DNA from: Lachnospiraceae bacterium | GTDB lineage: Bacteria; Bacillota; Clostridia; Lachnospirales; Lachnospiraceae | Reading direction: 5' to 3' | DNA: 44,588 nucleotides | Assembly: GCA_021199655.1 (NCBI GenBank) | Contig: JAJQHQ010000054.1 | Span: 1 to 44,588, forward strand | Shown: one piece after another, positions 16,621 through 44,588 of the stretch | Layout: every line of letters starts with the position of its first letter | How positions within the stretch are numbered: the first letter of the stretch is position 1 | Made by a program: the position numbers and the translations under genes | The notes under the pieces: generated by a model | What the model was told of the DNA's origin: nothing | The model's database searches: none | The model's input: only the letters and a program-made list of their open reading frames with translations

Positions 16621-16658
16621 TGTGAACTGTAAAAAATGTATTCATATGAGAAACAATT

Positions 16659-16792
16659 GTAATTATCAGGACAGGTCTTCGCACCTGCTGCGAAGACCGT
16701 ATGAAAACGATTAACATGTGGGGAAAAGCCTCATCGCGCAGCGATTTTAAATAGGCTTTTCCCTCGTAACTGTGAAGGTACTGAACAGTTAC
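16659..16792 (+). mobile_element. MITE copy 1, 134 bp, with perfect 8-bp target duplication
   Basis: The left end is GTAATTATCAGG and the right end CTGAACAGTTAC. Inside are three hairpins: GTCTTCGCA/TGCGAAGAC, a GGGGAAAAGCC/GGCTTTTCCC stem enclosing ATCGC/GCGAT, and the terminal TAACTGT/ACAGTTA. AAACAATT occurs at 16651-16658 and again at 16793-16800, an 8-bp direct duplication. It lies between hicB and the MATE gene. Confidence 0.85.
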
Positions 16793-16838
16793 AAACAATT
16801 CATCAAAAGCGTGCGCAGGGAGTAAATTTCGAAACAAC

Positions 16839-18260
16839 ATGAATACGAAAATGAATACGAAAATAAACAACAGACAGCCGGTCAGCCGGCTGTTTTCCAA
16901 CCATGATCTGCTGATCCTGATTCTGCCGCTGGTGCTGGAGCAGGCGCTTGCGATCACGGTCGGGATGGCGGATACCATGATGGTATCTAACGCGGGAGAG
17001 GCCGCCGTTTCCGGCGTGTCTCTGGTAGATATGTTTAATAACCTGGTGTTCGCGGTGCTTTCCGCGCTTTCGACCGGCGGCGCGGTCGTGACGTCACAGT
17101 TTCTGGGAGCCAAAAAGCGCGAAAGCGCCTGCCATTCGGTGATGCAGCTGATCGTTTCGACCCTCTTGATCACGATCGTTCTTTCTGTTTTGATCATACT
17201 GGGCAGGCAGCCGCTGATCCGTTTGTTTTTCGGCAGCATTGACGCGGATGTGTTTGCAGCGGCCGCGCTTTATATGGGGATTTCAGCGCTGTCTTACCCG
17301 TTTCTGGCTGTGTATAACGCTTCCGCCGCAATTTTCCGCGTGATGAATAACGCGAAGATCACGCTGAAGGTATCTATTGTCATGAATCTGATCAACGTGG
17401 TCGGCAATGCCATTGGTATTTTCGCCTTGCATGCGGGTGTGGTCGGCGTTGCTGTGCCGTCGCTGATTTCCCGCGCGTTTGCGGCGATCGTCCTGTATGT
17501 ATTGCTGCGTAATCCGAAGCTGGAGATTCACATTGATCCGGGAAAATTCCGCTTTGATCCGAATCTGATCCGGCGCATTTACAGGATCGGTATACCGAGC
17601 GGGATTGAGAACGGCATTTTTCAGCTGGGGCGTGTTGTGGTCGTCAGCATCATTTCCGGCTTCGGCACGGTTCAGATCGCCGCAAACGGCGTAGCCAACA
17701 GCCTGGACGCCATGGGCTGTATCGGCGGACAGGCCATGAATCTGGCCATGATCGCCGTGATCGGCCGCTGTGTCGGGGCGGGTGACGAGGAGCAGATCCG
17801 TTACTACACCAGAAAACTGATCCTCTGTACATATGGGCTGACACTGCTGTGTGCCGGCTCCATTCTGCTGTTCCTGGAGCCGATTCTGAGTCTTTACGGA
17901 CTGGGAGAGGAGACTACCGCGCTGGCGGCTCTGCTGGTGCGGATCCATGACGGGTTTGCGATCCTGCTCTGGCCGATGGCATTTACCTTTCCAAACATGC
18001 TGCGTGCATGCAATGATGTGAAATATACCATGGGCATTTCGATTTTTTCCATGTGCGTCTTTCGGATCGGCATCAGTATCGTGCTGGGGCAGCAGATGGG
18101 CTACGGCGCGGTCGGAGTCTGGATCGGTATGGTGATCGACTGGGTGTTCCGGATTCTGTGTTTTATGATCCGCTATTTCCGGGGAAGCTGGCGGCTTACT
18201 ATTCACGGCGAGCCTGACACTTGCTGTCAGGCTGCGCCAGAACACGTTTCGGATGTGTGA
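16839..18260 (+). CDS. MATE family efflux transporter with C-terminus altered by a mobile repeat
   Basis: A 473-residue multidrug/toxin exporter with twelve predicted helices. The first shows LPLVLEQALAITVGMADTMM, the usual MATE helix-1 pattern; VSGFGTVQIAANGVANSLD and the symmetric half are also clear. It likely exchanges cations for organic substrates. The start is uncertain: GGGAG lies about seventeen bases upstream of ATG 16839, and ATGAATACGAAA is present twice in a row. The last 21 codons (from LTIHG) are encoded by a mobile repeat inserted at 18195; a decayed copy at 19120-19222 preserves the uninterrupted ending (GSWRRLAML). MITE copies flank the gene on both sides. Confidence 0.85.
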   Translation: MNTKMNTKINNRQPVSRLFSNHDLLILILPLVLEQALAITVGMADTMMVSNAGEAAVSGVSLVDMFNNLVFAVLSALSTGGAVVTSQFLGAKKRESACHSVMQLIVSTLLITIVLSVLIILGRQPLIRLFFGSIDADVFAAAALYMGISALSYPFLAVYNASAAIFRVMNNAKITLKVSIVMNLINVVGNAIGIFALHAGVVGVAVPSLISRAFAAIVLYVLLRNPKLEIHIDPGKFRFDPNLIRRIYRIGIPSGIENGIFQLGRVVVVSIISGFGTVQIAANGVANSLDAMGCIGGQAMNLAMIAVIGRCVGAGDEEQIRYYTRKLILCTYGLTLLCAGSILLFLEPILSLYGLGEETTALAALLVRIHDGFAILLWPMAFTFPNMLRACNDVKYTMGISIFSMCVFRIGISIVLGQQMGYGAVGVWIGMVIDWVFRILCFMIRYFRGSWRLTIHGEPDTCCQAAPEHVSDV

Positions 18261-18337
18261 TTTCGCCCCCATGCATCGAAGATGCATTTAAAATGGGGCG
18301 AAATCGTTACATTCACAGCGCAGCTGTGAATAGTAAC
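18195..18337 (+). mobile_element. MITE copy 2, 143 bp, inserted in the MATE gene 3' end
   Basis: The ends are CTTACTATTCAC and GTGAATAGTAAC, with the same internal plan as the 135-bp copies: GCCTGACA/TGTCAGGC, a GATTTCGCCCC/GGGGCGAAATC stem holding ATGCATC/GATGCAT, and a terminal GTTAC..GTAAC hairpin. The flanks GCTGGCGG (18187-18194) and GCTGGAGG (18338-18345) match at 7 of 8 bases. Diverged in sequence from copy 1 but equal in architecture. Confidence 0.8.
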
Positions 18338-18413
18338 GCTGGAGGCGGCTGGCAATGCTTCTTTGAAAAAGATAAAAGAGGAACAAACAGCGTGAATGAA
18401 ATATAAAAACGTA

Positions 18414-18442
18414 TTGCATGATGCTATACATTTTGCTATAAT
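18414..18442 (+). promoter_or_regulatory. promoter of the dinJ/relE-type pair
   Basis: TTGCAT (18414-18419), a 17-bp spacer and TATAAT (18437-18442) lie 27 bp before the antitoxin ATG. A strong ribosome site, AAAGGTGG, follows. Confidence 0.65.
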
Positions 18443-18469
18443 CGTCAATATCAGAAAGGTGGTGTCGTA

Positions 18470-18769
18470 ATGGCAGTAAAAAGTGCAAACGTAACAGCAA
18501 GGGTGGAACCGGAAGTGAAAAGCGAGGCAGAAGCAATTATTTCTGAGCTGGGTCTTTCCGTATCCACGGTTATTAATTCTCTGTATAAACAAATTATTTT
18601 AAGGAGAGGTATTCCCTACACCCTGACATTATCTGTGGAGCCGAAACCGGTATCGGAAATGTCAAAAGCAGAATATGATCTTATGATGAAAACAGGGCTT
18701 GAACAGGCAAAAAACGGGGAATCGTTAGATGCCGATGAAGTGTTTGATGAGCTTTTGAGGGAGATTTAG
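18470..18769 (+). CDS. RelB/DinJ family antitoxin
   Basis: A 99-residue protein. The N-terminal half (VTARVEPEVKSEAEAIISEL then GLSVSTVINSLYKQII) is the ribbon-helix-helix domain of DinJ/RelB antitoxins. The tail from about residue 60 is acidic and probably disordered, wrapping the toxin. The toxin gene follows at 4 bp. The pair sits between the MATE gene and a decayed MATE copy, so it looks like a later arrival in a rearranged site. Confidence 0.85.
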   Translation: MAVKSANVTARVEPEVKSEAEAIISELGLSVSTVINSLYKQIILRRGIPYTLTLSVEPKPVSEMSKAEYDLMMKTGLEQAKNGESLDADEVFDELLREI

Positions 18770-18773
18770 TCTG

Positions 18774-19118
18774 GTGGAACGATATAAAATAAAAATTACC
18801 CCTTACGCAAGAGAACAAATGAAAGAGATCAGAGATTATATCGCCTGCCAGTTATTAAATCCGGACGCTGCCCGAAATACCATTAAGGCTATTCGGAAAG
18901 AAGTGAACAGTTTATCAACAATGCCGGATCGTTTGCGGACGGTAGATGAGGAACCCTGGGGAAGTCTGGGTGTTAGAAAAATATCTGTAAAAAATTATTA
19001 TGCTTATTACTGGATTGAGGAAGAAGCACAGGTCGTTCATGTAACGGCAGTAGCCTATGCTATGAGAAATCAGGAAAATGTTCTTAAACAAATCAGGGAC
19101 GAGAAATTCAAAGCCTGA
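18774..19118 (+). CDS. RelE/ParE superfamily toxin
   Basis: A 114-residue toxin. It reads YKIKITPYAREQMKEIRDYI at the start, MPDRLRTVDEEPWGSLGVRK in the middle and KNYYAYYWIEEEAQVVHVTA near the end, the usual RelE/ParE strand order with basic and aromatic residues. It may cleave mRNA at the ribosome (RelE/YafQ type) or poison gyrase (ParE type); the sequence alone does not decide. It starts with GTG four bases after the antitoxin stop. Confidence 0.8.
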   Translation: MERYKIKITPYAREQMKEIRDYIACQLLNPDAARNTIKAIRKEVNSLSTMPDRLRTVDEEPWGSLGVRKISVKNYYAYYWIEEEAQVVHVTAVAYAMRNQENVLKQIRDEKFKA

Positions 19119-19119
19119 T

Positions 19120-19222
19120 TACGGCCGCTGGTGCTTGCAATCACTGTTGGAATGGCGGATAGCGTATCTAAGCTTTACGATCCGCTATTCCCGGGGAAGT
19201 TGGCGGCGGCTGGCAATGCTGT
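19120..19222 (+). pseudogene. internally deleted remnant of a MATE gene
   Basis: 19120-19172 aligns with the MATE helix-1 coding region (about 16925-16988) with small deletions. 19173-19222 aligns directly with the MATE 3' end (about 18163-18194) and then runs without interruption into CGGCTGGCAATGCT, the sequence found after the mobile repeat at 18346. The remnant thus joins the first and last parts of a MATE gene and keeps the site empty of the mobile repeat. Confidence 0.8.
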
Positions 19223-19263
19223 AGATGTGAATTCAGGGGTTGACATTTATTAAAATTGTGGCA

Positions 19264-19280
19264 TGGCGGCATCTCTGTAA
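19264..19280 (+). repeat. 17-bp direct repeat of the AAA relic 3' end
   Basis: TGGCGGCATCTCTGTAA is identical to 21484-21500, the last codons and stop of the chimeric AAA gene. The two copies bracket the tnpB element and the relic. The stretch 19223-19375 otherwise holds no recognisable gene. Confidence 0.75.
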
Positions 19281-19375
19281 CGAGGTGTGTGAAAATGGAA
19301 CTGGCACAATAAAAAGCGTGTATTTGTGAAAGCGCCGCGGAGGCGGCCATTAAGGCTTTATTCTTTGCCTCTTGA

Positions 19376-19545
19376 GTGAACTACCCATTGTCTGAAGCCA
19401 ATGGGCTTCCTGCTTCATCAGTCTTTGTTCCGCTACGGTCGACGCTAAACGGACATCCACTGGATGCTCGGCGCCCTCGTAACCTATATCTCCACAGGCG
19501 TAAATTCGGGCGGTCCCCGCCCTATCAGAATTTCTTTATGCGATT
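19376..19545 (-). ncRNA. putative omega-RNA (reRNA) of the TnpB element
   Basis: The minus strand from the tnpB 3' end outward shows the hairpin GGGCGG/CCGCCC (19522-19508) and a terminal hairpin of CCCATTG/CAATGGG (about 19404-19382) ending GGTAGTTCAC, a typical right-end fold of IS605-group elements. Such RNAs overlap the tnpB end and carry a guide read from the flanking DNA. Here the guide would start just after the TTCAC at about 19380-19376 and run toward 19350. Confidence 0.6.
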
Positions 19546-20639: not shown

Positions 20640-20709
20640 TTTCTGCTGACCTTCCTTATTGCAATAAATATTTATTTCTGTTTTTTGATTTCCATTTTGT
20701 CATGCTGAA

Positions 20710-20738
20710 ATTATAACATAAAAATTTGCTTTTGTCTA
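20710..20738 (-). promoter_or_regulatory. tnpB promoter
   Basis: Minus strand TAGACA (20738-20733), a 17-bp spacer and TATAAT (20715-20710), about 70 bp upstream of the tnpB ATG. Confidence 0.55.
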
Positions 20739-20825
20739 CCCTAATACATCACCTAAAGCTAATGGGATTGCGGCTGACCCATTTCGATCAAACAGACGGA
20801 AAGCGGAAAACGCATTCAGATACTG

Positions 20826-21500: not shown

Positions 21501-21520
21501 AGCGTTTACGTGACGACTAT

Positions 21521-21567
21521 GTTTAATTAGATTGACAAAATAGAGAGAAAGGTTTATTATATTAAAC
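21521..21567 (+). promoter_or_regulatory. hipBA promoter bracketed by an inverted repeat
   Basis: -35 TTGACA (21532-21537), 17-bp spacer and -10 TATTAT (21555-21560). Perfect half-sites GTTTAAT (21521-21527) and ATTAAAC (21561-21567) flank the promoter with centres about 40 bp apart, near four helix turns. This fits binding of two HipB dimers or looping for autorepression. AGGAGA precedes the ATG at 21584. Confidence 0.7.
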
Positions 21568-21901: not shown

Positions 21902-21903
21902 AT

Positions 21904-25699: not shown

Positions 25700-25808
25700 G
25701 GCATCGCAGAATCTGCGCCTGGTATTTTATCGCCTTGATATTACGGAATCTGCGCCTGGTATTCTATCGTCCGGTCATTGCAGAATCTGCGCCTGTCACT
25801 CCATCGTC
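25700..25808 (-). repeat. tandem repeat (37-38 bp, three units) across the cyclase stop codon
   Basis: On the minus strand, units starting GACGATGG, GACGATAG and GCGATAAA share the core CCAGGCGCAGATTC (first unit ACAGGCGCAGATTC). The first unit includes the last codons and TGA of the diguanylate cyclase gene. Confidence 0.85.
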
Positions 25809-27292
25809 CGGATATCATAGAGCGTGTACTGGTCGCGCCCGCTGTTCTTGGAAAGATAGAGCGCCTTGTCTGCTTTTTCGTACAGATCCTGGAAATTCTT
25901 CGCGTGCTGCGGGAACAGCGCGACACCGATGCTGCAGGATACAGAAAGGGTCGGCGCGGTATCCACCTTGATGGAGCGCACCATCTGACAGACCATCTCC
26001 GCCCGCTCGACTGCGGCTTCCGGCGTGGCGTTTTTCATGAAGATACCGAATTCATCGCCGCCGAGACGGCCGATGATATCACTCTCGCGGAAGATTTCCT
26101 TCAGACCGTTGCCGACCGCGCTCAGAACGATGTCTCCGACTGCGTGGCCGTAACCGTCATTCACATGCTTGAAAAGGTCGATATCCAGCATCAGGAAGGC
26201 CTGTGTGCCGTAGCAGGCTTCGTCAGCCAGCCAGAGCTTGATGTATTCCTCCGCAGTCTTTTTGTTGTTGATGCCGGTCAGGGCGTCCGTCTCCGCGAAG
26301 TGTACAAGGGTCTTTTGCTTGCGGAAGGTGACGATGATCAGGATCAGCACCATGATGAACAGTCCGGCAGCCAGCACCTGGAACAGTCTCGTCTCGTAGA
26401 ACGTGAACTGGCTGTAGGAAGCATGCGCGTTGTCAACAGATACAACATAGCAGAGCATCCAGTCGCTTACCCCAAGCGATTCAAAATAGCAGTAGTAGGA
26501 ACCTTTGGCGTCAACCATGGTAAGCAGACGGGATTCTCCTGCCTCAATATCTTCTTTCCAGGCAGTCACGGTATATTTTTCTGAACCGTCGTCCGTGACA
26601 GTCGTTACGGTTCGGTAATCCGTAAAAACATTGAAAATAATGCTGTCTGTTTCCAGCTCAAAAATACTTGTGCCGTTCTGGGAGACGACAGAACCATCCT
26701 CCTGTGTGACGATGAGGAACTGCCCGGTCCCCTCATAGAGCTCGTTGAACAGCAGGCTGCCGAGAGCCTGAATATCATAGGAACCGCCGAGCACACCGAC
26801 GACAGTGTCACCGCTGAAAATAGGCACACTTAAAACGACACGGGTAGACCCGTCTACCTTACTGACAACAGGGGAACTTAAGGAACGCTCTCCGGCCATG
26901 GAATTGTTGAAATACTCGCGACCTGAGAGATTCCGCGTGTTATTGTTGCTGTACCAAGCTGTGCCATCCTCGTCGATCAGTGCGATCAGGCTGAAGGAGC
27001 TGTTCTCCGCGACACTGGAAATCAGCTGCAGAGAGTTCTCGTTGATCAGGTCGTCACTTTCGTTCTCTCCGAGATAAGCGGCAAGCCCTTCCAGATATTC
27101 ATACTGGGATTCGATCGTGGTCGCAAAATGAGACTGTTCACGATTTACACTTTCAATAATGGTATCCTGCGCATTTTCCGTGACGGCTTTCCTGTAAAAA
27201 TGAAAAAATACAAAGATGCTGGCTACCGCAAACAAAATGAATACAGAAAAGCAGATCGCGTAAAAAGGCGTGAGGTTTTTATTTTTTTGCAC
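25796..27292 (-). CDS. dCache-type sensor diguanylate cyclase (GGDEF)
   Basis: A 498-residue membrane sensor making cyclic di-GMP from two GTP. A helix near residues 10-30, an extracellular double-Cache-like ligand domain (about 35-310, with GREYFNNS and VLGGSYDIQALG) and a second helix (about 315-337) precede the GGDEF domain (DALTGINNKK at about 345). The active site RLGGDEFGI is intact near residue 411. The inhibitory I-site is present as RESD five residues before it, so product feedback is expected. I choose GTG 27292 because GGGAGGA lies eight bases upstream; a GTG at 27331 would add 13 residues. Its 3' end has been tandemly duplicated. Monocistronic. Confidence 0.9.
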   Translation of the reverse strand: MQKNKNLTPFYAICFSVFILFAVASIFVFFHFYRKAVTENAQDTIIESVNREQSHFATTIESQYEYLEGLAAYLGENESDDLINENSLQLISSVAENSSFSLIALIDEDGTAWYSNNNTRNLSGREYFNNSMAGERSLSSPVVSKVDGSTRVVLSVPIFSGDTVVGVLGGSYDIQALGSLLFNELYEGTGQFLIVTQEDGSVVSQNGTSIFELETDSIIFNVFTDYRTVTTVTDDGSEKYTVTAWKEDIEAGESRLLTMVDAKGSYYCYFESLGVSDWMLCYVVSVDNAHASYSQFTFYETRLFQVLAAGLFIMVLILIIVTFRKQKTLVHFAETDALTGINNKKTAEEYIKLWLADEACYGTQAFLMLDIDLFKHVNDGYGHAVGDIVLSAVGNGLKEIFRESDIIGRLGGDEFGIFMKNATPEAAVERAEMVCQMVRSIKVDTAPTLSVSCSIGVALFPQHAKNFQDLYEKADKALYLSKNSGRDQYTLYDIRTME

Positions 27293-27370: not shown

Positions 27371-27562
27371 ATGTTTCGAAAAAGGGTAGAACTTTTATGG
27401 GCGAATCAGCAAAAAAATAACTTTTTCGGCAGCGAAACGTCTTTGGTGGCCGATCAGGGACTTTACTCCATCGCGGTCGCCGGGATTATGGCGGTGGCCA
27501 TTCTGCTGGTCTCTACCGTTGTGCGTTTGTGTTTTTATGACCGGATGAAAAACGGAAATTGA
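27371..27562 (+). CDS. uncertain small membrane protein or gene remnant
   Basis: A 63-codon frame with one hydrophobic helix (LYSIAVAGIMAVAILLVSTV) near the end. No ribosome site is seen before the ATG, and it overlaps the divergent cyclase promoter. Beyond its TGA the same frame stays open through the 33-bp repeat units. Because tandem duplications in this window tend to span real gene ends, it may be the tail of a former gene. No family recognised. Confidence 0.25.
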   Translation: MFRKRVELLWANQQKNNFFGSETSLVADQGLYSIAVAGIMAVAILLVSTVVRLCFYDRMKNGN

Positions 27563-27566
27563 TCCT

Positions 27567-27655
27567 GGTTGGAAAAACACAGAAATATATGCGAATTCAG
27601 GTTGGAAAAACACGGAAATGCGCACGAATTCAGGTTGGAAAAACACAAAATATTA
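27567..27655 (+). repeat. 33-bp tandem repeat (2.7 units)
   Basis: Units start at 27567, 27600 and 27633 with GGTTGGAAAAACAC. The period of 33 is a multiple of three, and all units share the frame of the small ORF just upstream, reading RLEKHGNAHEF-like repeats after its stop. Confidence 0.85.
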
Positions 27656-27667
27656 AAGGAAATACGG

Positions 27668-27723
27668 TTGTATAAATACGACCATTATGCTATAGTAAAC
27701 GACAACAATAATTTGTTGTTTAC
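27668..27723 (+). promoter_or_regulatory. promoter and near-perfect palindrome before the DUF4143 ATPase
   Basis: TTGTAT (27668-27673), 17-bp spacer and TATAGT (27691-27696). A 29-bp imperfect palindrome, with outer arms GTAAAC and GTTTAC (27695-27723) and inner ACAA/TTGT, begins inside the -10 box. A repressor there would cover the transcription start. No obvious repressor gene is adjacent. Confidence 0.5.
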
Positions 27724-29170: not shown

Positions 29171-32100
29171 ATGGGCGAACAGGCAGGAAAAACAGCAGAG
29201 GGAAATGGCCCGGATCCGGCTGGCAAATTCAGGACAGGTAAAAGGATATGTGCCGGTCTTCTGGCTCATGTCGACGCCGGGAAAACAACGCTGGCGGAGG
29301 GCATCCTGTATCTGACCGGAGGTATACGTCATCTGGGCAGGGTCGATCATCAGGACGCCTTTTTGGACAATTTTGCACTGGAACGGGAACGGGGGATCAC
29401 CATTTTCTCCAAGCAGGCGCAGGTGGTGCTGCGCCCGGGGACAAGTGCTGCGGCCGATCATGCTGCAGCTGCTTTGCGCGAAGGAGCTATGGGTTCTCTT
29501 TCGCTGCGGAAAGATGGGCTGGAAGATTCGGATCTTCACCTGACGCTTCTTGACACCCCGGGGCATGTGGACTTTTCTGCGGAGATGGAGCGGACGCTGC
29601 AGGTGCTGGACTACGCGGTGCTGGTGATCAGCGGCGCGGACGGCGTGCAAAGCCATGTAGAGACCTTATGGAGACTGCTGGCACGCTATGAGATTCCGGT
29701 ATTTCTGTTTGTCAATAAGATGGATCAGCCGGGGACGGATCAGACGGCGTTGATGGCGGAGCTGTCGCAGAAGCTGGATGAGCGGTGCGTGGATTTCTCC
29801 GGCCCGCTGGCAGTCGAGAGAATGTCTGAAAAGGCTCCTTTAAAGGATACTGCCTTCAAAAATGCAAATAGTAAGAATGCGTCATCAAAATGGAATGCGA
29901 AGGCTGCAGGAGAAGATGGCGGATATTTTGTGTCAGAAGAATTTCAGGAAGCCCTGGCGATGTGTGATGAGGAACTGCTGGAGATTTATGCTTCCGGAGA
30001 AGTGATTGGGACGGAGGCGATACGGAGCGCGATTGCAGCCCGAAAGGTATTTCCCTGTTATTTCGGTTCGGCGCTGAAGCTGTGGGGTGTGCAGGAGCTG
30101 CTGGACGGAATCCGTGTCTACAGCGTTTCGAAAGAATATTCGGACGAATTCGGCGCGAGGGTCTACAAAATCACGCGTGATGCGCAGGGCAATCGTCTGA
30201 CGCATATGAAAATCACCGGCGGTACGCTGCGGGTGAAGGACGTGTTGACGAACCGCAGAAAAGGAGAAAACTCCGGAACGGACGGATTAAGTGAACGGGG
30301 CAGAGGAACAGTTTGGGAAGAAAAAGTCAATCAGATACGCATTTTTTCCGGCGCGGGCTATGAAGCCGTGAGTGAGGCGGAGACAGGAAGCATCTGCGCG
30401 GTCACAGGGCTGGAGCATACCTACGCGGGAGAAGGACTGGGCGCGGAGCCGGAAGGAGAACTTCCGGTGCTGGAGCCGGTCCTGTCGTATCGGATCGAAC
30501 TGTTGGAAGGGACGGATGTGCATCAGGCGTTCCGGCAGCTGAAGCAATTGGAGGAAGAAGAACCGCAGCTGCATATTACGTGGGTGTCGGGAGCCGGAAG
30601 GCACATGACAGACGGCAGCTCTGCCCTGCGTTCTGATGAGAAAAATTCAGGAGGGCGTTCTGCCGGCGCGGCTGCCGCACCGCAATCCGATAATACGGCA
30701 CCCGGAAAAGACAGCCGGATGAGCAGCGGTAACGGTGAGATCCACGCGCAGCTCATGGGCGAGGTGCAGATCGAGATTCTGCAGAGTATGATCCGGGATC
30801 GTTTTGGCCTTGCTGTGAAATTTGGCGAGGGCAGCATCCTGTACCGGGAGACCATTGCCGCGCCGGTCGTCGGCATGGGACATTTTGAGCCTCTGCGCCA
30901 TTACGCGGAGGTGCACCTTCTGATGGAACCGGCGGAGCGTGGCAGCGGCCTGCAGTTTGATACCATCTGCAGTGTGGATGATCTGGCCCTGAACTGGCAG
31001 CGCCTGATCCTGACACATCTGGAAGAAAAAACGCACCTCGGCGTGCTCACCGGGTCAGAAATTACAGATATGAAGATCACGCTCATCGCGGGAAGAGCGC
31101 ATCAGAAGCACACAGAGGGCGGCGATTTCCGGCAGGCGACCTACCGCGCCGTGCGGCAGGGGCTTTGCCGTGCGCAGTCGGTTCTGCTGGAGCCGGTCTA
31201 CAGCTTCCGCATGGAAGTGCCGATGGAATCCGTAGGGCGGGCATTGTCCGACATTCAGCGCATGTACGGCACTGCGGAGCCGCCGGAACTGATGCAGTCG
31301 ACGCGTGGATACAAAGGTGCCGGGGGCGGTGCTGCAATCCCGGGGACTGCCGGAATGCCAGATGGCAGCATTTCATCAGGCAGCGGTTCACCGGGCGGCA
31401 GTTCTTCATCGGGTGCTGGCTCGCCGAACAGTGCCGGATCGGCTGACGGCGACTGGATGGTGATCCGGGGCACCGCGCCGGTCGTGACGATGCGCGGCTA
31501 TCAGAGCGAGCTTCTTTCCTATACAAAAGGCCGCGGCCGCCTTTTCTGCCGGATGAGCGGCTATGAAGAGTGTCACAATGCGCAGGAAGTCATTGAGGCA
31601 CGCGCTTATAATGCGGAAGCGGATCTGGAGAATCCGTGCGGATCAGTGTTCTGTGCGCACGGAGCCGGTTTTGTGGTGAACTGGGAGGATGTGCCGGACT
31701 ATGTGCACATTGCCGGGACGGATGCGTTTGCGGCGGATGCATTTGCGGAAGATGCGCCTGCAAAAGGTGCGTCTGTAAAAGATGCGGAGGCGAGTCTACG
31801 CGGGGAAAATCCGTCGCGTGACTTTGCGGATGTGTCTGATAGGAACGGATTGAGCGGAGCGCAGGGAGTACATGGTTCACAGCCAGGAAGGAGTCAACCA
31901 GGTGCAGCATCTTCAGACAGCAGCCGCGAAGGAGACGTATCGGGACGGGGAATGCCCCGCAGTGTACGTACCAGTGCGGCTCCTGCCCCTTCGGCCAGTG
32001 ACGAGGAGTTAAAGCAGATTTTTGAACGAACGTATGGCGAATCGAAGTGGGACACCAACCGTTCCCGTTATGGCTCCGAAACCGGGACAGGCCGGACGTC

Positions 32101-32647
32101 CGATGCGGCCGGAACTGTCAGAGACTTTAACAGGAAGCGAAAGTCCGCGCATAGCTTGGACGCTCAGGAGGAATGCCTTCTTGTGGACGGCTACAACGTG
32201 ATCTTTGCCTGGGACGAGCTGAAGGAGCTGGCAAAGATCAGTCTGGAGAGCGCCCGCGGCCGGCTTCTCGATCTGATGAGCAATTATCAGGGTTACAAAA
32301 ACAATTATCTGATCGTGGTGTTTGACGCCTACCGGGTAGAAGGCCATGCGACAGAGGTTTCCCGCTATCACAATATTTATGTCGTTTTCACAAAGGAAGC
32401 GGAGACCGCCGATCAGTATATCGAGAAAACAGTGCGCCTCATCAACCGGAAATATCATGTGACTGTGGCGACTTCGGATGCGCTCGAACAGGTCATTATT
32501 TTCGGCGCGGGAGCGTCCCGCATGTCCGCGCTGGGCCTGCGCGATGAAGTGGAACTGATGCAGAAGGATCTGCGGGAGAATTTTCTGAACGTGCAGCCCA
32601 AGGGCGGAAAAGTATATCTGCTGGATGAAAACAGGAATTATTTGTAA
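29171..32647 (+). CDS. TetM-like translational GTPase fused to a YacP/Rae1-like NYN endoribonuclease
   Basis: An 1158-residue fusion. The first 840 residues follow the EF-G/TetM plan: G1 AHVDAGKTT (32-40), G2 RGIT (74-77), G3 DTPGH (128-132), G4 NKMD (182-185), G5-like GSALK near 297, domain II (VYKITRDAQGNRLTHMKITG), domain IV (GMGHFEPLRHYAEVHLLMEP) and domain V (LLEPVYSFRMEVPMESVGRA). The C-terminal 155 residues (LLVDGYNVIFAWDELKELA, VVFDAYRVEG, ETADQYIEKTV, VATSDALEQVIIFGAGA) match the NYN/PIN-like YacP family; B. subtilis Rae1 of that family cuts mRNA in the ribosomal A site. Long low-complexity inserts lie at about 87-121, 218-250, 478-520, 716-757 and 851-995. GGGAGGAGG precedes the ATG. 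It probably acts on ribosomes; antibiotic protection is uncertain. Confidence 0.85.
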   Translation: MGEQAGKTAEGNGPDPAGKFRTGKRICAGLLAHVDAGKTTLAEGILYLTGGIRHLGRVDHQDAFLDNFALERERGITIFSKQAQVVLRPGTSAAADHAAAALREGAMGSLSLRKDGLEDSDLHLTLLDTPGHVDFSAEMERTLQVLDYAVLVISGADGVQSHVETLWRLLARYEIPVFLFVNKMDQPGTDQTALMAELSQKLDERCVDFSGPLAVERMSEKAPLKDTAFKNANSKNASSKWNAKAAGEDGGYFVSEEFQEALAMCDEELLEIYASGEVIGTEAIRSAIAARKVFPCYFGSALKLWGVQELLDGIRVYSVSKEYSDEFGARVYKITRDAQGNRLTHMKITGGTLRVKDVLTNRRKGENSGTDGLSERGRGTVWEEKVNQIRIFSGAGYEAVSEAETGSICAVTGLEHTYAGEGLGAEPEGELPVLEPVLSYRIELLEGTDVHQAFRQLKQLEEEEPQLHITWVSGAGRHMTDGSSALRSDEKNSGGRSAGAAAAPQSDNTAPGKDSRMSSGNGEIHAQLMGEVQIEILQSMIRDRFGLAVKFGEGSILYRETIAAPVVGMGHFEPLRHYAEVHLLMEPAERGSGLQFDTICSVDDLALNWQRLILTHLEEKTHLGVLTGSEITDMKITLIAGRAHQKHTEGGDFRQATYRAVRQGLCRAQSVLLEPVYSFRMEVPMESVGRALSDIQRMYGTAEPPELMQSTRGYKGAGGGAAIPGTAGMPDGSISSGSGSPGGSSSSGAGSPNSAGSADGDWMVIRGTAPVVTMRGYQSELLSYTKGRGRLFCRMSGYEECHNAQEVIEARAYNAEADLENPCGSVFCAHGAGFVVNWEDVPDYVHIAGTDAFAADAFAEDAPAKGASVKDAEASLRGENPSRDFADVSDRNGLSGAQGVHGSQPGRSQPGAASSDSSREGDVSGRGMPRSVRTSAAPAPSASDEELKQIFERTYGESKWDTNRSRYGSETGTGRTSDAAGTVRDFNRKRKSAHSLDAQEECLLVDGYNVIFAWDELKELAKISLESARGRLLDLMSNYQGYKNNYLIVVFDAYRVEGHATEVSRYHNIYVVFTKEAETADQYIEKTVRLINRKYHVTVATSDALEQVIIFGAGASRMSALGLRDEVELMQKDLRENFLNVQPKGGKVYLLDENRNYL

Positions 32648-33798: not shown

Positions 33799-33848
33799 AT
33801 AACTGTTCAGGACATTCAAAGTTATGAGGTGCTGTCCTGAATAGTTAC
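33799..33848 (-). mobile_element. MITE copy 3, 50-bp form
   Basis: The ends are ATAACTGTTCAG and CTGAATAGTTAC. The flanks GTGACCTC (33791-33798) and GTGACATC (33849-33856) match at 7 of 8 bases. The form equals the 135-bp element with its middle removed. It lies between the ATPase and binding-protein genes. Confidence 0.8.
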
Positions 33849-33891
33849 GTGACATCTATAAGTAAAGGACAAAATTGCCGTCCTCAACTTC

Positions 33892-34023
33892 CTGGTGATC
33901 CATCGCTGCGCCGCTGCTTTCCTCCTAACGGTCCATCGCTGCGCCGCTGCTTTTCTCCTGGCGGTCCATCGCTGCGCCGCTGCTCTCCTCCTAACGGTCC
34001 ATCGCTGCGTCATTGCTTTCTTC
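33892..34023 (-). repeat. four in-frame 33-bp units across the ATPase stop codon
   Basis: Units on the minus strand are 34023-33991, 33990-33958, 33957-33925 and 33924-33892, each reading like EESSGAAMDRQ. The final codon is TAG, CAG, TAG, CAG in order, so the first unit now ends the protein. After unit four the frame continues to a natural-looking stop at 33858-33856. Confidence 0.9.
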
Positions 34024-34798: not shown

Positions 34799-34848
34799 GC
34801 AGCTGTTCAGTACTTTCGCAGCTGCGAGGTACTGTCCTGAATAGTTAT
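34799..34848 (-). mobile_element. MITE copy 4, 50-bp form
   Basis: The ends are GCAGCTGTTCAG and CTGAATAGTTAT. The flanks CATATTTC (34791-34798) and CATATTTT (34849-34856) match at 7 of 8 bases. Same length and layout as copy 3, but with a compensated inner hairpin (CGCAGCTG/CAGCTGCG). It lies between the permease and ATPase genes. Confidence 0.75.
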
Positions 34849-35857: not shown

Positions 35858-35927
35858 GCAACAGTTCAGAACAGCATGGAAATGAAAAACAGGTTGTGCA
35901 GGTTTGCCTGCTATTCTGAATCGTTAC
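35858..35927 (+). mobile_element. MITE copy 5, 70-bp form, degenerate
   Basis: Imperfect terminal repeats GCAACAGTTCAGAACAGCA and TGCTATTCTGAATCGTTAC. The flanks ATATTTTG and GGTTTTGG match at only 5 of 8 bases. Same length as the copy at 40047-40116. Confidence 0.6.
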
Positions 35928-35972
35928 GGTTTTGGGACAATATATGAAAATAAAACACAGGAGGTTACGAAA

Positions 35973-37655
35973 ATGGGCTTCGATAAGGAAAACGCAAAGA
36001 AGACGATCGAGAGCGGCAAGGCGGTACTTGGTCTGGAGTTTGGCTCCACGAGGATCAAGGCGGTGCTGGTGGATGAGGCAAATCAGCCGATCGCTTCCGG
36101 CAGCCATGAGTGGGAAAATCAGCTGGTATATATGGATTTGCCCCCTCACCAGAGTTCGGCGGCAGGTCGTGCCGACCATGAAGAAAACGCTGCGCGTTTG
36201 GCCGGCACTGGAGTCTGGACATACAGCATGGATGCGATCTGGAGCGGACTTCAGGACTGCTACAGCGATCTGGCAGCGGATGTGAGAAAGAAATACGGCA
36301 TTGTGATCGAGAATCTCGCGGCGATCGGTTTCAGCGCGATGATGCATGGCTATCTCGCGTTTGATAAAAATGATCAGCTTCTGGTGCCGTTCCGCACCTG
36401 GAGAAATACGATCACGGAGCAGGCTTCCAAAGAACTGCTTGACCTGTTCCAGTTCAATATCCCGCAGAGATGGAGCATTTCTCATCTGTATCAGGCAATC
36501 TTGAACGGCGAGGAGCATGTAAAAGATGTCGCATTCTTTACGACGCTGGCAGGTTACATTCACTGGCAGATGACCGGGCAGAAAGTGATCGGTATCGGCG
36601 ACGCATCCGGTATGTTCCCAATCGACAGTGAGACCAGAGATTATAATCAGAAGATGATCGACCAGTTTGACGCGCTGGTGGCGCCGAAGGGCTATCCGTG
36701 GAAGCTGCGCGATATTTTGCCGAAGGCGCTTCTCGCAGGCGAAGACGCCGGTGTCCTTACGGAAGAAGGCGCGAAGAAGCTGGATGTGTCCGGTATGCTT
36801 AAACCCGGCGTTCCGATCGCTCCGCCGGAAGGCGACGCGGGCACCGGTATGGCTGCGACCAACAGCGTAGCAGTCCGCACCGGCAACGTATCCGCGGGTA
36901 CCTCCGTATTTGCGATGATCGTGCTGGAAAAAGAACTTTCAAAGGCATATCCGGAGATCGATATGGTGACGACGCCGACCGGCGACGCGGTGGCGATGGT
37001 ACACTGCAACAACTGCACCTCCGACCTGAATGCGTGGGTGGGCCTGTTCCGTGAATTTTCAGAGACATTTGGCATGGATGTAGAGATGGATCATCTGTTT
37101 GGCACCCTTTACAATAAGGCACTCGAAGGTGATAAAGACTGCGGCGGTATCGTAGCGTACAATTATTTCGCCGGCGAGCCGGTGACCGGTCTGAACGAGG
37201 GACGTCCGCTTCTGGTGCGTACCCCGGACGCGAAGTTTAACCTTGCGAACTTCATGCGCGCGAACCTGTACGCGTCTCTTTCCACGCTGAAGATCGGACT
37301 GGATCTTCTGCTGAAGAATGAGGATGTCAAGGTGGATAAGATCATGGGCCACGGCGGTCTCTTCAAGACAAAAGGCGTCGGCCAGAGCATCCTTGCGGCG
37401 GCAATGGATTCGCCGGTATCCGTGATGGAGACGGCAGGAGAGGGCGGCCCGTGGGGCATGGCGCTTCTGGCTTCCTATCTTGTCAACAAAAAAGACGGAG
37501 AGTCTCTGGATGCGTTCCTCAATGAGAAAGTATTCGCGGGCAGCGAGGGAGTAGAGATTCAGCCGGATCCGGCGGATGTGGCCGGTTTCGATCAGTACAT
37601 TGAGAGCTACAAGGCCGGCATCGCGATTGAGAAAGCGGCGGTCAAGGCAATCTGA
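35973..37655 (+). CDS. FGGY family carbohydrate kinase
   Basis: A 560-residue sugar kinase of the xylulokinase/ribulokinase superfamily. The phosphate-1 loop is [18 protein letters not shown] (about 17-34). [14 protein letters not shown] and FRTWRNT are substrate-side motifs. The adenosine end is [20 protein letters not shown] with [19 protein letters not shown]. It phosphorylates a sugar or polyol; which one is not evident. About 27 residues ([20 protein letters not shown] region, near residue 55-80) look like an extra insertion. ATG 35973 is chosen for ACAGGAGG upstream. It is divergent from the Ssu-like operon. Confidence 0.85.
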
Positions 37656-38332: not shown

Positions 38333-38467
38333 GTAACTGTTCAGTACCTTCACAGTTACGAGGAAAAAGCCCATTTAAAATCGCTGCGCGATGGGGCTTT
38401 TCCCCACATGTTATACGCTTTCATACGGTCTTCGCAGCAAGTGCGAAGACCTGTTCTGAATAGTTAC
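38333..38467 (-). mobile_element. MITE copy 6, 135 bp, with perfect 8-bp target duplication
   Basis: The ends are GTAACTGTTCAG and CTGAATAGTTAC. CCGCAGCT occurs at 38325-38332 and 38468-38475. The three-hairpin plan equals copy 1 in reverse orientation. The insertion site is the left arm of the rubrerythrin terminator, which the target duplication leaves intact. Confidence 0.9.
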
Positions 38468-39874: not shown

Positions 39875-39880
39875 TGCCAT

Positions 39881-39907
39881 ATAACTGTTCGGTACCTTCA
39901 CAGTTAC
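39881..39907 (-). mobile_element. MITE copy 8, 27-bp terminal hairpin
   Basis: ATAACTGTTCGG to CACAGTTAC equals the end hairpin of the 135-bp elements. GATGCC occurs just before (39873-39878) and shortly after (39911-39916), perhaps a worn target duplication. The stretch up to 40003 holds no gene. Confidence 0.55.
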
Positions 39908-40011
39908 GAGGATGCCTGATAATACAGTGGAAATCGAATTGCCGATTCGGAAAAATCCATCATCCGGGACGGATTGTCTGATTCTCAAACCGGGGTGGGT
40001 GTAGTATAATC

Positions 40012-40038
40012 GTAACTGTGAAGGTGCTGAACAGTTAC
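40012..40038 (+). mobile_element. MITE copy 9, 27 bp, with perfect 8-bp target duplication
   Basis: GTAACTGTGAAG to CTGAACAGTTAC, only the terminal hairpin, flanked by GTATAATC at 40004-40011 and 40039-40046. It is the smallest copy here with a clean duplication. Confidence 0.8.
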
Positions 40039-40046
40039 GTATAATC

Positions 40047-40116
40047 ATAACAATGCTGAACGGGCTTTCGTGCCTGCAGCGAAGACCGTCTGTGGCCTGT
40101 TGTTCTGAACAGTTAG
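40047..40116 (-). mobile_element. MITE copy 10, 70-bp form
   Basis: On the minus strand it begins CTAACTGTTCAGAACAACAGG and ends AGCATTGTTAT. It carries a CTTCGCTGCAGGCACGAAAG stem and matches copy 7 at its start and copy 5 in length. It abuts the target duplication of copy 9. An AGTAAAA/TTTTACT hairpin follows at about 40128-40151. Confidence 0.55.
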
Positions 40117-40184
40117 CTTATTTTTATAGTAAAAGACGTAAGACGTTTTACTTTGCGCGAAACAGATAAAGGAGAGGACTCATT

Positions 40185-40892: not shown

Positions 40893-40908
40893 AAAAGATA
40901 GAAATAAG

Positions 40909-40937
40909 TTGAAAAACAGGCTAAAAGCGGTTATATT
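40909..40937 (+). promoter_or_regulatory. predicted promoter of the ECF operon
   Basis: TTGAAA (40909-40914), 17-bp spacer, TATATT (40932-40937). MITE copy 11 starts eight bases downstream of the -10 box, close to the expected transcription start. Confidence 0.5.
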
Positions 40938-40945
40938 GTAAAAAG

Positions 40946-41080
40946 GTAATTGTTCGGGACAGTACTTCGCACTTGCTGCGAAGTACGTATGAAAACATAT
41001 ATTACGTGGGGAAAAGCCCCATCGCGTAGCGATTTTAAATGGGTTTTTCCCACGTAACTGTGAAGGAACTGAACAGTTAC
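40946..41080 (+). mobile_element. MITE copy 11, 135 bp, in the ECF operon leader
   Basis: The ends are GTAATTGTTCGG and CTGAACAGTTAC, with the full three-hairpin plan in the same orientation as copy 1. The flanks GTAAAAAG (40938-40945) and GTAGAAGG (41081-41088) agree at 6 of 8 bases. Confidence 0.75.
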
Positions 41081-41131
41081 GTAGAAGGTTGTTTTACACT
41101 TTTTTTACAAATCCTATGAGGAGGAACGGTT

Positions 41132-41686
41132 ATGGAGAAAAAATTTGGGATCAAAGAAGTAGTTGCCATCGGTATCGGCACGGCGCTGTTCGTAGTGCTG
41201 ACGAATGTACAGATTCCGGTCGGGTTTATCCCGAACACGGCAATGCAGACGCGTGTACCGGTGCTGGCGTTTTTCGCGGCAATCTTTGGACCGGTAGTCG
41301 GCGGTGCGATCGGACTGATCGGGCATGCGCTTGGAGATGCGCTGTTCTATGGAAGCGTGTGGTGGAGCTGGGTATTCCCGGATGCGCTGTTTGGTCTGGC
41401 GGTCGGTCTGTTTGTGAAGCAGTATAAGGTACGCGAAGGCGGATTTGATAAAAAAGCAATCGTATTGTTCAATGTCGTGCAGGTAGTGGCGAACGCAGTG
41501 GCATGGATCCTGCTGGCGCCGGTTCTGGATATTCTGATCTATGCTGAGCCGGCGAACAAGGTGTTCACGCAGGGCGCAGTGGCATGTGTACTGAATGTTG
41601 TGATCACAGCGATTCTGGGCACATTGCTTCTGGTGGCATATTCGAAGGTGGGCGCAAAGTCCGGGAGCCTTTCGAAGGAAGAGTAA
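41132..41686 (+). CDS. ECF transporter S component, UPF0397 family
   Basis: A 184-residue substrate-binding membrane subunit with five to six helices. The family pattern is clear: FGIKEVVAIGIGTALFVVL, IGHALGDALFYGSVWWSWVF, FNVVQVVANAVAWILLAPVL, then EPANKVFTQGAVA and the ending KVGAKSGSLSKEE. UPF0397 proteins are S subunits thought to take up a thiamine-related or other vitamin precursor; the ligand is not fixed by the sequence. AGGAGGAACGG precedes the ATG. It is followed by the energising ATPase and T-subunit genes. Confidence 0.9.
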   Translation: MEKKFGIKEVVAIGIGTALFVVLTNVQIPVGFIPNTAMQTRVPVLAFFAAIFGPVVGGAIGLIGHALGDALFYGSVWWSWVFPDALFGLAVGLFVKQYKVREGGFDKKAIVLFNVVQVVANAVAWILLAPVLDILIYAEPANKVFTQGAVACVLNVVITAILGTLLLVAYSKVGAKSGSLSKEE

Positions 41687-41818
41687 TCTCGCGGATGTTT
41701 TTTATAGAATGTTGCCGCGATGCCATCAACGAAAGAGGATGGGTGATTCACTTTCCCGGTATTGGAATTGCGTACGGATGATATCAGCGCAGAGGCGGGA
41801 AATAATGAGGATTAACAC

Positions 41819-43690
41819 ATGAATCCGATCATTGAGTTTAAAGACTATACGTTTAAATATCGGGCACAGAAGGAGCCGACTCTCCGGAATATTGATCTGA
41901 CGATTTATCCCGGGGAGAAGGTTCTGATCGTGGGACCATCCGGGTCAGGAAAATCGACTCTGGTGCACTGCATCAATGGGATGGTTCCTTTTTCATACCC
42001 GGGAGATGCGACCGGTACGCTGACCGTGAAGGAAAAGGATCCTGCGAAGACGGGAATTTTCGGGATGTCGAAGATTGTCGGGACAGTGCTGCAGGACACG
42101 GACGGGCAGTTCATCGGACTGACAGTGGCGGAGGATGTCGCTTTTGCGCTGGAGAACGACTGTGTGCCGCAGGACGAGATGTTCAGCATGGTAAATGATG
42201 TCGCCGATGTGGTGGACATCCGGGAGCTTTTACCGAATTCTCCCACAGAGCTGTCCGGCGGGCAGAAACAGCGCGTATCCATGGCGGGCGTGCTTGTGGA
42301 CGATGTGGACATCCTGCTGTTCGACGAGCCGCTGGCGAATCTGGACCCCGCGACAGGCAAGCGTGCGATCGACCTGATCGATAAGATTTGCCGGGAGCGG
42401 AGCAAGACGGTCATCATCATCGAGCACCGGTTGGAGGACGCGTTGTATCGGGACGTCGACCGGATCGTGGTGATCGGAGAAGGACGCGTGGCTGCAGATT
42501 GTACGCCGGATGAGCTTCTCGCTTCGGATATCCTGATCCGCGAGGGTATCCGTGAGCCGCTGTATGTGACGGCACTCAAGCATGCGGGCTGCACGGTGCG
42601 TGCGGAAGATCATCCGCAGCACATTGAGACGATGAACCTGGATTCCTGTAAAGAACGCGTGAAAGAATGGTTTGAAGAGGTAGAGCTTCCGGAACCAAAG
42701 CCGAAAAAAGAATCGGCGCTGGAGGTTCTGAATCTGGATTTTTCTTACATATCCGGGCATCCGGTGCTCTCTGATATCCGTTTTCGGATTGAAAAGGGAG
42801 AGATGCTGGCGATCGTCGGCAAGAACGGTGCAGGAAAGAGTACACTTTCCAACCTGATCTGCGGATTCTTACATCCGGATCGCGGACAGATTCTGCTCAA
42901 TGGTTCTGACATTGCGGATAAATCCATCAAAGAGCGCGGGCAGGTCATCGGACTGGTGATGCAGAATCCGAACCAGATGATCTCCAAGCCCATGATTTTT
43001 GACGAGGTGGCGCTGGGGCTGCGTGTGCGCGGCGTGCCGGAGGAGGAAGTGAAGGAGCGTGTCTATGACAAGCTGAAGATCTGCGGCCTTTATCCCTTCC
43101 GCAACTGGCCGGTCTCGGCTTTAAGCTTTGGCCAGAAGAAGCGCGTCACTATCGCCTCGATCCTTGTTATGGATCCGGAGATTCTGATCCTGGATGAGCC
43201 GACAGCGGGGCAGGATTACCGGCATTACACGGAGATAATGGAGTTCCTGAAGGAGCTGAACGAGTCACTTGGCATCACAATTGTCATGATCACCCATGAC
43301 ATGCATCTGATGCTGGAATATACCGACCGCGCCATCGTGATCGCCGACGGACAGATGATCGCGGACGACACACCGGCAAACGTGCTTACGAACGAGAGTG
43401 TGGCCGACCGGGCTTATCTGAAAAAGACATCCCTCTACGATCTCGCGGTGCGCTGCGGGATTGAGGATGCGTCCGGATTTGTTGAACGGTTTATTTATTA
43501 TGAGAGGACTGTAGCGCGAAAGACGGCAAATGAAGGAACGGCAGACGGCGCTTCGAAGTACGTAAAGGCGGCAGAAGAAGAACATACGGGAAATGAACCA
43601 GCCGGAAGGGCTTCGACAGGAAAGCCGGATGGAGCATCTGGCAGAAAAGCCCCGGCAGCGGGAAAGAAGGTGACTTCGGATGGCAGGTAG
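41819..43690 (+). CDS. ECF transporter double ATPase (EcfA1-EcfA2 fusion)
   Basis: A 623-residue protein with two ATP-binding domains in one chain. Domain 1: Walker A GPSGSGKST (about 40-48), LSGGQKQRVSMAG, Walker B LLFDEPLANLDP, switch His IIEHRLED. Domain 2: GKNGAGKST (about 335-343), LSFGQKKRVTIAS, LILDEPTAGQD, MITHDMHLM. Both look active; the second signature is LSFGQ rather than LSGGQ. A charged, low-complexity tail (about residues 563-623) is probably disordered. Its end overlaps the start of the T-subunit gene by 11 bp, implying coupled translation. Confidence 0.9.
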   Translation: MNPIIEFKDYTFKYRAQKEPTLRNIDLTIYPGEKVLIVGPSGSGKSTLVHCINGMVPFSYPGDATGTLTVKEKDPAKTGIFGMSKIVGTVLQDTDGQFIGLTVAEDVAFALENDCVPQDEMFSMVNDVADVVDIRELLPNSPTELSGGQKQRVSMAGVLVDDVDILLFDEPLANLDPATGKRAIDLIDKICRERSKTVIIIEHRLEDALYRDVDRIVVIGEGRVAADCTPDELLASDILIREGIREPLYVTALKHAGCTVRAEDHPQHIETMNLDSCKERVKEWFEEVELPEPKPKKESALEVLNLDFSYISGHPVLSDIRFRIEKGEMLAIVGKNGAGKSTLSNLICGFLHPDRGQILLNGSDIADKSIKERGQVIGLVMQNPNQMISKPMIFDEVALGLRVRGVPEEEVKERVYDKLKICGLYPFRNWPVSALSFGQKKRVTIASILVMDPEILILDEPTAGQDYRHYTEIMEFLKELNESLGITIVMITHDMHLMLEYTDRAIVIADGQMIADDTPANVLTNESVADRAYLKKTSLYDLAVRCGIEDASGFVERFIYYERTVARKTANEGTADGASKYVKAAEEEHTGNEPAGRASTGKPDGASGRKAPAAGKKVTSDGR

Positions 43691-44512
43691 ACTTCTTACA
43701 TATATGCCCAAAGAGACATGGATCCACCGGCTTTCCGGCGTCTCCAAGATGATTTTTTCCTGCTCTGGTCGATCACCGGGATGCTGACCTATGATACCCG
43801 GATCCTTCTGCTGATGCTGGTGATCAGCCTGGTGATTTTTAAAGTATCAAAGACCGAATGGAAGCAGGTTGGCACTGTCTTCAAATTCATTCTTTTGTTC
43901 CTGTGCCTGAATCTGTTTGCGGTCTGGCTGTTCTCCCCTTATCAGGGGACTGTCGTTTACGGCACAAAAACGGTGCTCCTAAAGGTGGTGGGAGACCACG
44001 ACATCACGGCAGAGCAGCTGTTTTATGAGTTCAACATCATGCTGAAATATTTTACGGTGACGCCGGTGGTGCTGATGTTCATCGTGACGACCAATCCGAG
44101 TGAGTTTGCGGCGAGCCTGAACCGGCTCGGCGTCAGTTACAACATCGGCTATGCGATCGCTATCGCCCTGCGCTATGTGCCGGATGTGCAGGCGGATTTT
44201 ACAAAGATTAAGCATGCGCAGGAGGCGCGCGGTATCGAGATGAGTAATAAAGCCTCGATTCCGAGCCGCATTAAGAACATGAGCGCGATCATCTTTCCGC
44301 TTTTGTTTTCCAGCATGGACCGCATTGATGTAGTCAGCAACGCAATGGAGCTGCGCGGCTTCGGCAAGAACAAAAAACGTACCTGGTATATGGGGAAAGC
44401 ACTGGAGCGGAACGATTATATGACGATCGGCTTCGCGCTGGTGTTCATGGTCGCTGGTCTCGCGATCACATTCGCCGACGGAAGCCGATTCTGGAATCCA
44501 TTTATGAGATAG
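43680..44512 (+). pseudogene. ECF transporter T component (EcfT), frameshifted near the start
   Basis: The ATG at 43680 overlaps the ATPase stop behind GAAGGTGA and opens MAGRLLTYMPKETWIHRLSG then VSKMIF, a normal EcfT beginning. At a run of six T (43753-43758) the frame breaks; the rest (FLLWSITGMLTYDTRILLLM to the stop at 44512) continues in the frame one base over. A seventh T would restore one reading frame of about 277 residues. The second part keeps both EcfT coupling motifs (AQEARGIEM and AMELRGFGK) and four helices. A start at 43718 in the second frame exists but lacks a ribosome site. Either a true mutation, a sequencing indel, or slippage on the T run. Confidence 0.8.
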
Positions 44513-44537
44513 ATTTGTTCAGACTTAATAATTATTC

Positions 44538-44588
44538 GTAACTGTTCAGTACCTTCACAGTTACGAGGGAAAAGCCCATTTAAAATCG
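44538..44588 (-). mobile_element. MITE copy 12, cut by the window end
   Basis: GTAACTGTTCAG opens the same sequence as copy 6, continuing through the first hairpin and GGGAAAAGCCC into the second. The other end lies outside the window. With copy 11 it brackets the ECF operon in inverted orientation. Confidence 0.8.

Follow-up and report, generated by a model that had tools for sequence, protein, structure and literature searches.

Bacterial miniature inverted-repeat transposable elements (MITEs) are short, gene-less and present in high copy number, and they carry terminal inverted repeats flanked by target duplications; they are usually taken for transposon remnants whose ends alone are important. 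The elements described here, on the 44,588-nt contig JAJQHQ010000054.1 of a Lachnospiraceae bacterium (assembly GCA_021199655.1, forward strand; this whole contig is called the window below), resemble bacterial MITEs in all these respects, and differ from them in having a hairpin core that is preserved in many genera, its stems covarying and its unpaired letters conserved. The copies are best explained as two sister families, A and B, within a wider superfamily of miniature transposons that carry no genes and occur in this bacterial family. From sequence comparison, we consider it fairly likely that these elements are mobilised by IS66 and that their folded DNA is required for them to propagate.

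Integron attC sites and the ends of IS200/IS605 elements are folded single-strand recombination sites. As in the present elements, unpaired letters are conserved in these sites and stems are variable; in contrast, the 8-bp duplications of the present elements point to a DDE double-strand mechanism. To our knowledge, the accessory proteins of IS66 have no known role. Duplications of 8 bp are tabulated for two IS66 elements in PMC3281130. An IS66 subgroup with GTTACTATTCACAG ends (for example in Schaedlerella arabinosiphila) shares its terminal repeat with family B, has ends close to those of family A and makes 8-bp duplications; unlike it, the miniature elements are gene-less, and no match to their second hairpin turned up in the IS66 loci searched. 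No published description of these elements was found in the open-licence literature, where the end 12-mers do occur in 16 papers, none of which has transposable elements as the subject of its title.

Copies and target duplications in the genome

The genome (3.98 Mb, 110 contigs) was searched by motif, and the window and 112 further loci were read for end pairs. The exact end 12-mer had 186 matches genome-wide, versus 0 for a reversed control, and the 27-nt left end GTAACTGTTCAGNACCTTCACAGTTAC had 190 matches with at most two mismatches, versus 0 in the control. Reading the window and the 112 loci gave 183 candidate end pairs after removal of duplicates. The 8-bp flanks matched at six or more positions in 74 pairs (8/8 in 37, 7/8 in 26 and 6/8 in 11), a level reached by only 1 to 3 of the 183 pairs when the right flank was shifted by 8 to 40 bases. 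Perfect duplications had a fixed length: 37 were found at 8 bp, and 0 or 1 at lengths 4–7 and 9–12. The 74 elements supported by a target site duplication (TSD) measured 27–237 bp (28 of 27–31 bp, 8 intermediate and 38 long) and had no transposase gene inside. Terminal inverted repeats, a fixed 8-bp TSD, lack of genes and multiple copies are the marks of a MITE, the class to which an earlier note on this DNA had assigned the window copies. The shifted-flank and length controls bear out this assignment, about 190 left ends were found in the genome, and duplications recur at other loci.

The ends of contigs C15, C54, C68, C72, C95 and C99 fall in or beside a family A copy, so that the copy number may be higher in a finished genome. 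No viral contig matched the exact 27-mer, and no plasmid matched the 135-bp element. Two human-fecal records named 'Bacteriophage sp.' (L344, MT836459.1, and L345, MT839789.1; unannotated and unverified) contain relatives of family A, whose flanks match at 8/8 in one record and at 5/8 in the other; these records may be bacterial DNA.

Within the window, the end motif GTAACTGTTCAG had 23 matches with at most two mismatches (1.85 expected; none of 100 shuffles reached 23). The flanks of ten intervals were compared; three matched at 8/8, three at 7/8 and one at 6/8, and all seven of these duplications, already listed in the earlier note, were reproduced on recheck, the other three intervals being unsupported. 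Long family A copies lie at 16659–16792 (minus strand, 134 bp, left end at 16792, TSD AAACAATT, 8/8), 38333–38467 (plus strand, 135 bp, TSD CCGCAGCT, 8/8) and 40946–41080 (minus strand, 135 bp, TSD GTAAAAAG/GTAGAAGG, 6/8), and they scored 61.2, 57.8 and 51.6 bits, respectively, with a model of hairpin 2. Two 50-bp family A copies are on the plus strand with 7/8 duplications; the first (33799–33848) looks like an internal deletion, and the second (34799–34848) has paired changes in its end hairpin (GCAGCTG/CAGCTGC). A solo left-end hairpin of 27 bp is at 40012–40038 (minus strand, TSD GTATAATC, 8/8). An eleventh copy, of family A, is truncated by the contig end (44538–44588, plus strand) and comprises the left end and the first half of hairpin 2.

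The earlier count of at least ten dispersed copies with common ends needs correcting for the 143-bp copy at 18195–18337 (minus strand, TSD GCTGGCGG/GCTGGAGG, 7/8; 45.5 bits with the hairpin-2 model). This copy lacks the GTAACTGTTCAG/CTGAACAGTTAC ends, is bounded by CTTACTATTCAC and GTTACTATTCAC (read inwards) and belongs to family B. Three further members of that count are candidates whose duplication is unsupported: a degenerate 70-bp candidate copy at 35858–35927 (plus strand, 4/8), a left-end-like segment of 27 nt at 39881–39907 (plus strand, 3/8) and a degenerate 70-bp fragment with one end motif at 40047–40116 (minus strand, 2/8).

Two families and their short forms

The family B repeat GTTACTATTCACAG had 34 matches in the genome with at most one mismatch, versus 2 in the control. 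Among the ten B end pairs listed, seven are 142–143 bp long and eight have duplications of at least 6/8. One B copy (L102:2822–2964, duplication 7/8) lies within an A copy and has therefore moved later than that A insertion. The forms of 27 to 78 bp probably arose by internal deletion at short direct repeats. By eye, the junctions of the 27-bp form fall between both copies of ACAGTTAC or of AGTTAC, those of the 50-bp form at CGAGG and those of the 52-bp form at GTACCT. A 33-bp solo copy of family B (L220) is a left/right hybrid with an 8/8 duplication.

Hairpin core and stem covariation

A full-length element consists of a left end folded back on itself (the terminal repeat and an inverted copy of it, 26–39 nt), hairpin 2, a linker, often hairpin 3, and the right terminal repeat. 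Hairpin 2 has an outer stem, a conserved bulge on its 5' side (approximately ATTTAAA) and a short inner stem. Hairpin 3, found in many members, has the loop region CAG(C/T)NN(G/A)TG and, in the long A element, a stem around GCAAG. This three-hairpin plan is common to A and B, with covarying stems and conserved unpaired letters. The folding z-scores of seven full-length elements ranged from -4.5 to -9.1.

Covariation within family A was measured in an alignment, A3, of 33 distinct rows taken from 63 candidate long pairs (125–140 bp, duplication of at least 5/8). In A3, 97.0% of the cells in 34 pairs are paired; 52 cells are changed on both sides, compared with 17.9 after shuffling, and none of 500 shuffles reached 52. 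When hairpin 2 was compared across A, B and two other genomes, G102 and G067 (three genera, 22 distinct rows), 12 of its 15 pairs were changed on both sides (score 0.597 versus 0.187). Hairpin 3 was compared in a gap-free alignment, A6, of 19 rows from 16 genomes, picked by their loop pattern, in which 8 of 10 pairs were changed on both sides (score 0.596 versus 0.145). Covariation was far above that of the shuffled and slid controls, within A as well as between A, B and other genera, and the elements thus have the covarying stems by which a structured RNA is recognised. Since the stem letters change in pairs and the bulge letters stay, we conclude that the fold is constrained. The paired stem changes reported earlier in the long copies are real; the example chosen to illustrate them, GTCTTCGCA versus GCCTGACA, is a comparison of A with B, as 18195–18337 belongs to family B.

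It was also observed that a second hairpin insert (CCGCTTCGGTCGG ... CACTGG, about 53 bp) occupies the inner loop of hairpin 2 in family A copies with differing outer stems (L004, L027, L039, L058, L067 and L077). This insert is nested within itself in L039, and a related stretch is present in family B (L232).

Spread among other genomes

The left end of family A (at most three mismatches) was found in 15 of 200 genomes of the bacterial family, including its own, and was absent from G152, the one genome of the same genus. The hairpin-2 model, R1, matched 31 of the 200 genomes at E ≤0.001, each of a different genus. As R1 was built from sequences of the own genome, G102 and G067, three of these 31 match by construction and 28 were not used in model building; at most 30 candidates were scored per genome, with stricter filters. 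Among 29 R1 loci, one per genome (the own-genome locus being excluded from 30), 14 have terminal repeats and a duplication of 6/8 to 8/8. Clear ends were not found at the other 15, the weakest of which may be chance hairpins. Left ends in relatives read GTTACTGTTCACACG (G111), GTAACTGTTCACAG (G148), GTTACTATTCACAG (G112) and GTTACAATTCAG (G079). Other hairpin-rich elements, of about 141–175 bp, with GTAACTRTTCAG ends, 8-bp duplications and different cores, are present in G067 and G025 (L193–L212).

Level at which the constraint acts

Stem changes found in at least three copies of A3 keep the pair at six stem positions and give a wobble at one; at pair 33–72 there are also six unpaired cells, in copies that are one base off register there. 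Changes found in one or two copies occupy 36 stem cells, 16 of which come from L050 and L101, two copies of one subfamily that are misaligned, and were set aside. The remaining 20 rare cells comprise 14 that break the pair, 4 that give a wobble and 2, from one event, that are compensated. Single copies seem to decay while spreading lineages keep pairing. Since pairing is kept in the changes common to several copies and mostly lost in the rare ones, the constraint seems to act during propagation and not at individual insertion sites.

Selection on a transcript would be expected to leave one of two classes of cells, G-U or A-C, tolerated on its own strand. In A3 the two classes are similarly rare, without strand asymmetry (14 GU/UG versus 17 AC/CA; numbers are small, some A-C cells are misregistered and eight GU cells belong to one end pair), which leans towards a DNA fold and away from an RNA fold. 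A control with G-U pairs of tRNA acceptor stems had 41 of 189 pairs unpaired, probably off register, and was not used. It had been proposed earlier that an RNA or DNA fold is selected in these elements; covariation above the controls speaks for this, with DNA favoured, and the fold seems to be kept in the lineages that propagate.

Orientation relative to genes

The orientation of the copies was determined relative to gene calls made by longest-frame heuristics. Among 130 left ends with gene calls, 16 were within an open frame and 67 were between genes of the same direction. In 58 of these 67 copies the left-end strand runs opposite to the genes, and the same bias was observed in copies with a TSD (35/42, p 1.5e-5). 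It persists for genes on the GC-skew lagging strand (7 to 1), and G102 and G111 each gave 9 to 3 (p 0.15 each, not significant alone). A target preference was seen by the left end of 74 copies (T at position 7 in 49, C at position 8 in 46); as sole cause of orientation this motif was rejected, because it predicts 58.6% and not 83–87% (motif derived from the same copies, 55 gaps). Where the neighbouring genes were convergent or divergent, the count was 21 to 12 against the leading strand. Orientation driven by replication, as in single-strand transposons, is disfavoured since the bias tracks genes even on the GC-skew lagging strand. The bias could result either from transcription-coupled insertion or from harm caused by the other orientation. 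A gene 3' end lies within 20 bp of 14 of 40 right ends and of 7 of 12 left ends. In an empty-site comparison with G152, matches were only 67–84% identical and none spanned the copies.

These observations bear on an account in which the fold is that of an RNA: the elements would be co-transcribed, right end first, near genes, their hairpins would affect the stability, processing or 3'-end function of the transcript, and selection at that level would keep the fold. The opposition of left-end strand and genes, above the level expected from the target motif and present on the lagging strand, and the gene 3' ends close to element ends speak for it, as does a match to the GA-cis RNA on the right-end-first strand. 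This match is below threshold; the Rfam search of the elements gave no family at threshold, G-U cells are few and symmetrical between strands (with the misregistered cells mentioned above), and rare changes break the stems. On balance, an RNA fold seems unlikely to be what is selected.

The GA-cis RNA (Rfam RF02987) resembles the elements in its first hairpin, which is like hairpin 2; the match concerns one family and scores 27.5 bits, under the gathering threshold of 34.7 bits. It differs in that the second GA-cis hairpin is not common to that match and in that R1 misses the GA-cis match of the window. The latter (36127–36209, 43.7 bits for a threshold of 34.7) is within an FGGY-type kinase frame (35904–37655), at a point where this carbohydrate kinase gene has about 80 bp of additional sequence, in frame; its relative in G152 has no insert. 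GA-cis, a listed RNA, may itself be mobile.

Paired changes could also be mutational in origin, imperfect palindromes being perfected by template switching within hairpins, in which case no function would be needed. This would agree with alignment A5, which has 139 two-sided cells versus 1 one-sided cell and almost no wobble (A5 is model-fitted and includes both-strand matches of one palindrome), and with the end hairpins of damaged 50-bp copies, which show paired changes too. It leaves the conservation of bulge letters across genera unexplained, and the 20 rare cells of A3 contain a single compensated event; we regard a purely mutational origin as distinctly improbable.

Relation to IS66

A single IS66 DDE match was found in the own genome, in a fragment or relic on contig C6 that retains the exact family B terminal repeat (...GTGAATAGTAAC, C6:1625–1638). 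The boundaries of IS66 elements were compared at 47 loci with relatives of this fragment in named genomes, mostly Lachnospiraceae or other Bacillota, including six copies in Schaedlerella arabinosiphila. At 12 of the 47 loci, GTTACTATTCAC bounds both sides and the 8-bp duplication is perfect. L173 has GTTACAATTCAC ends and a perfect 8-bp duplication; L183 has an 8/8 duplication and a doubled right end; and L146 is a shorter relic, 97% identical to the C6 fragment, with a 7/8 duplication. The right end of the window B copy is identical to GTTACTATTCACAG at 14/14 positions, and family B shares its ends exactly with intact IS66 elements that make 8-bp duplications. For family A, the usual right end GTAACTATTCA differs from GTTACTATTCA by one base (10/11), and the left end GTAACTGTTCA by two (9/11). 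Other IS66 elements in relatives have GTAAACGTCAAACC or GTAAGTGCTTAA at the start and likewise make 8-bp duplications, in keeping with the earlier statement that IS66 ends begin GTAA and that 8-bp duplications are made.

As judged from the ends, a role of IS66 as driver of family B is well supported, and for family A it is the best inference, from similar ends and a plan common with B. The earlier suggestion that IS66 drives the whole set is thus stronger for B, whose ends are exact, and weaker for A, whose ends are only similar and for which no IS66 element with exact ends was found.

An autonomous partner of family A was looked for in other genomes. Among 15 relatives (14 with A left ends, and G152 of the same genus without), IS66 DDE matches were present in 7, 6 of them in the 14 with A left ends. 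Over the 200 family genomes, 74 had an IS66 DDE match, and 28 new loci from these were scanned for ends; an A- or B-like end with at most one mismatch occurred once (L266:996), upstream of the domain and without a partner. Ends and duplications were resolved in only two of the 28 loci, L242 and L257 (GTAACCGTCAAATAAC and GTAAGCGTCAAATAA), some loci being too short to include both ends. A search of the genera of G102 and G067 likewise gave no IS66 element with exact A ends. Intervals of about 3.5 kb between two ends in G067 and G025 were rejected as partners: they have no duplication of at least 6/8 and, by eye and with no family search made, their larger frames did not seem transposase-like.

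Proposed mechanism and points against it

An IS66-type transposase provided in trans would cut at GTWACWRTTCAS ends and generate the 8-bp duplication; ends and duplications are observed, and the enzyme is deduced from them. The folded DNA, as a single strand or a cruciform, would be bound or processed during transposition, which is the simplest site for the constraint. As a tentative extension, an IS66-type system may recognise or process its non-autonomous partners partly via folded DNA, the three conserved hairpins, with fixed letters in loops and bulges, forming a structural signal beside the terminal repeats; the elements would then have spread over many genera while terminal repeats and stems diverged together. 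The recurrence in up to 31 genera of a hairpin core whose stems covary, and which rare changes in single copies mostly break, constitutes a natural experiment on the role of DNA structure in IS66-type transposition, and it indicates that covariation, the usual mark of structured RNA, can stem from a mobile DNA element.

Several observations weigh against mobilisation by IS66 coupled to a required DNA fold. Pair types in A3 are no more numerous than in the shuffles (15 versus 16.7), and the rare changes on which the argument for propagation relies are few. Conservation of the hairpin-3 loop was partly built in by the choice of rows by loop pattern, although stem pairing was not selected in this way, and the third hairpin of G102, G136 and G027 is a different one. 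Hairpin-templated mutation could yield paired changes without selection, and an orientation that follows genes is unexplained by a fold acting purely at the DNA level. Hairpin 2, the only part of the core for which a model was used, gave no match in the IS66 loci searched, which indicates that the element cores are not IS66 remnants. No IS66 element with exact family A ends was found in the loci examined, many of them without resolved ends, the closest being the 10/11 match, and 8 of the 14 relatives bearing A ends have no IS66 DDE match. The last two findings would also fit a non-IS66 transposase that makes 8-bp duplications and moves family A, its end similarity being convergent, which we judge quite unlikely since family B has the same plan with exact IS66 ends, other IS66 elements in relatives also combine a GTAA start with 8-bp duplications, and absence from draft genomes is weak evidence.

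Other features of the window

Short tandem repeats are present at 33890–34021 and 27562–27680 (period 33 in both), 25702–25815 (period 37) and 4658–4743 (period 43). The frame 29171–32647 encodes 1158 amino acids, in which EF-G-like GTPase domains are fused to a C-terminal NYN_YacP domain.

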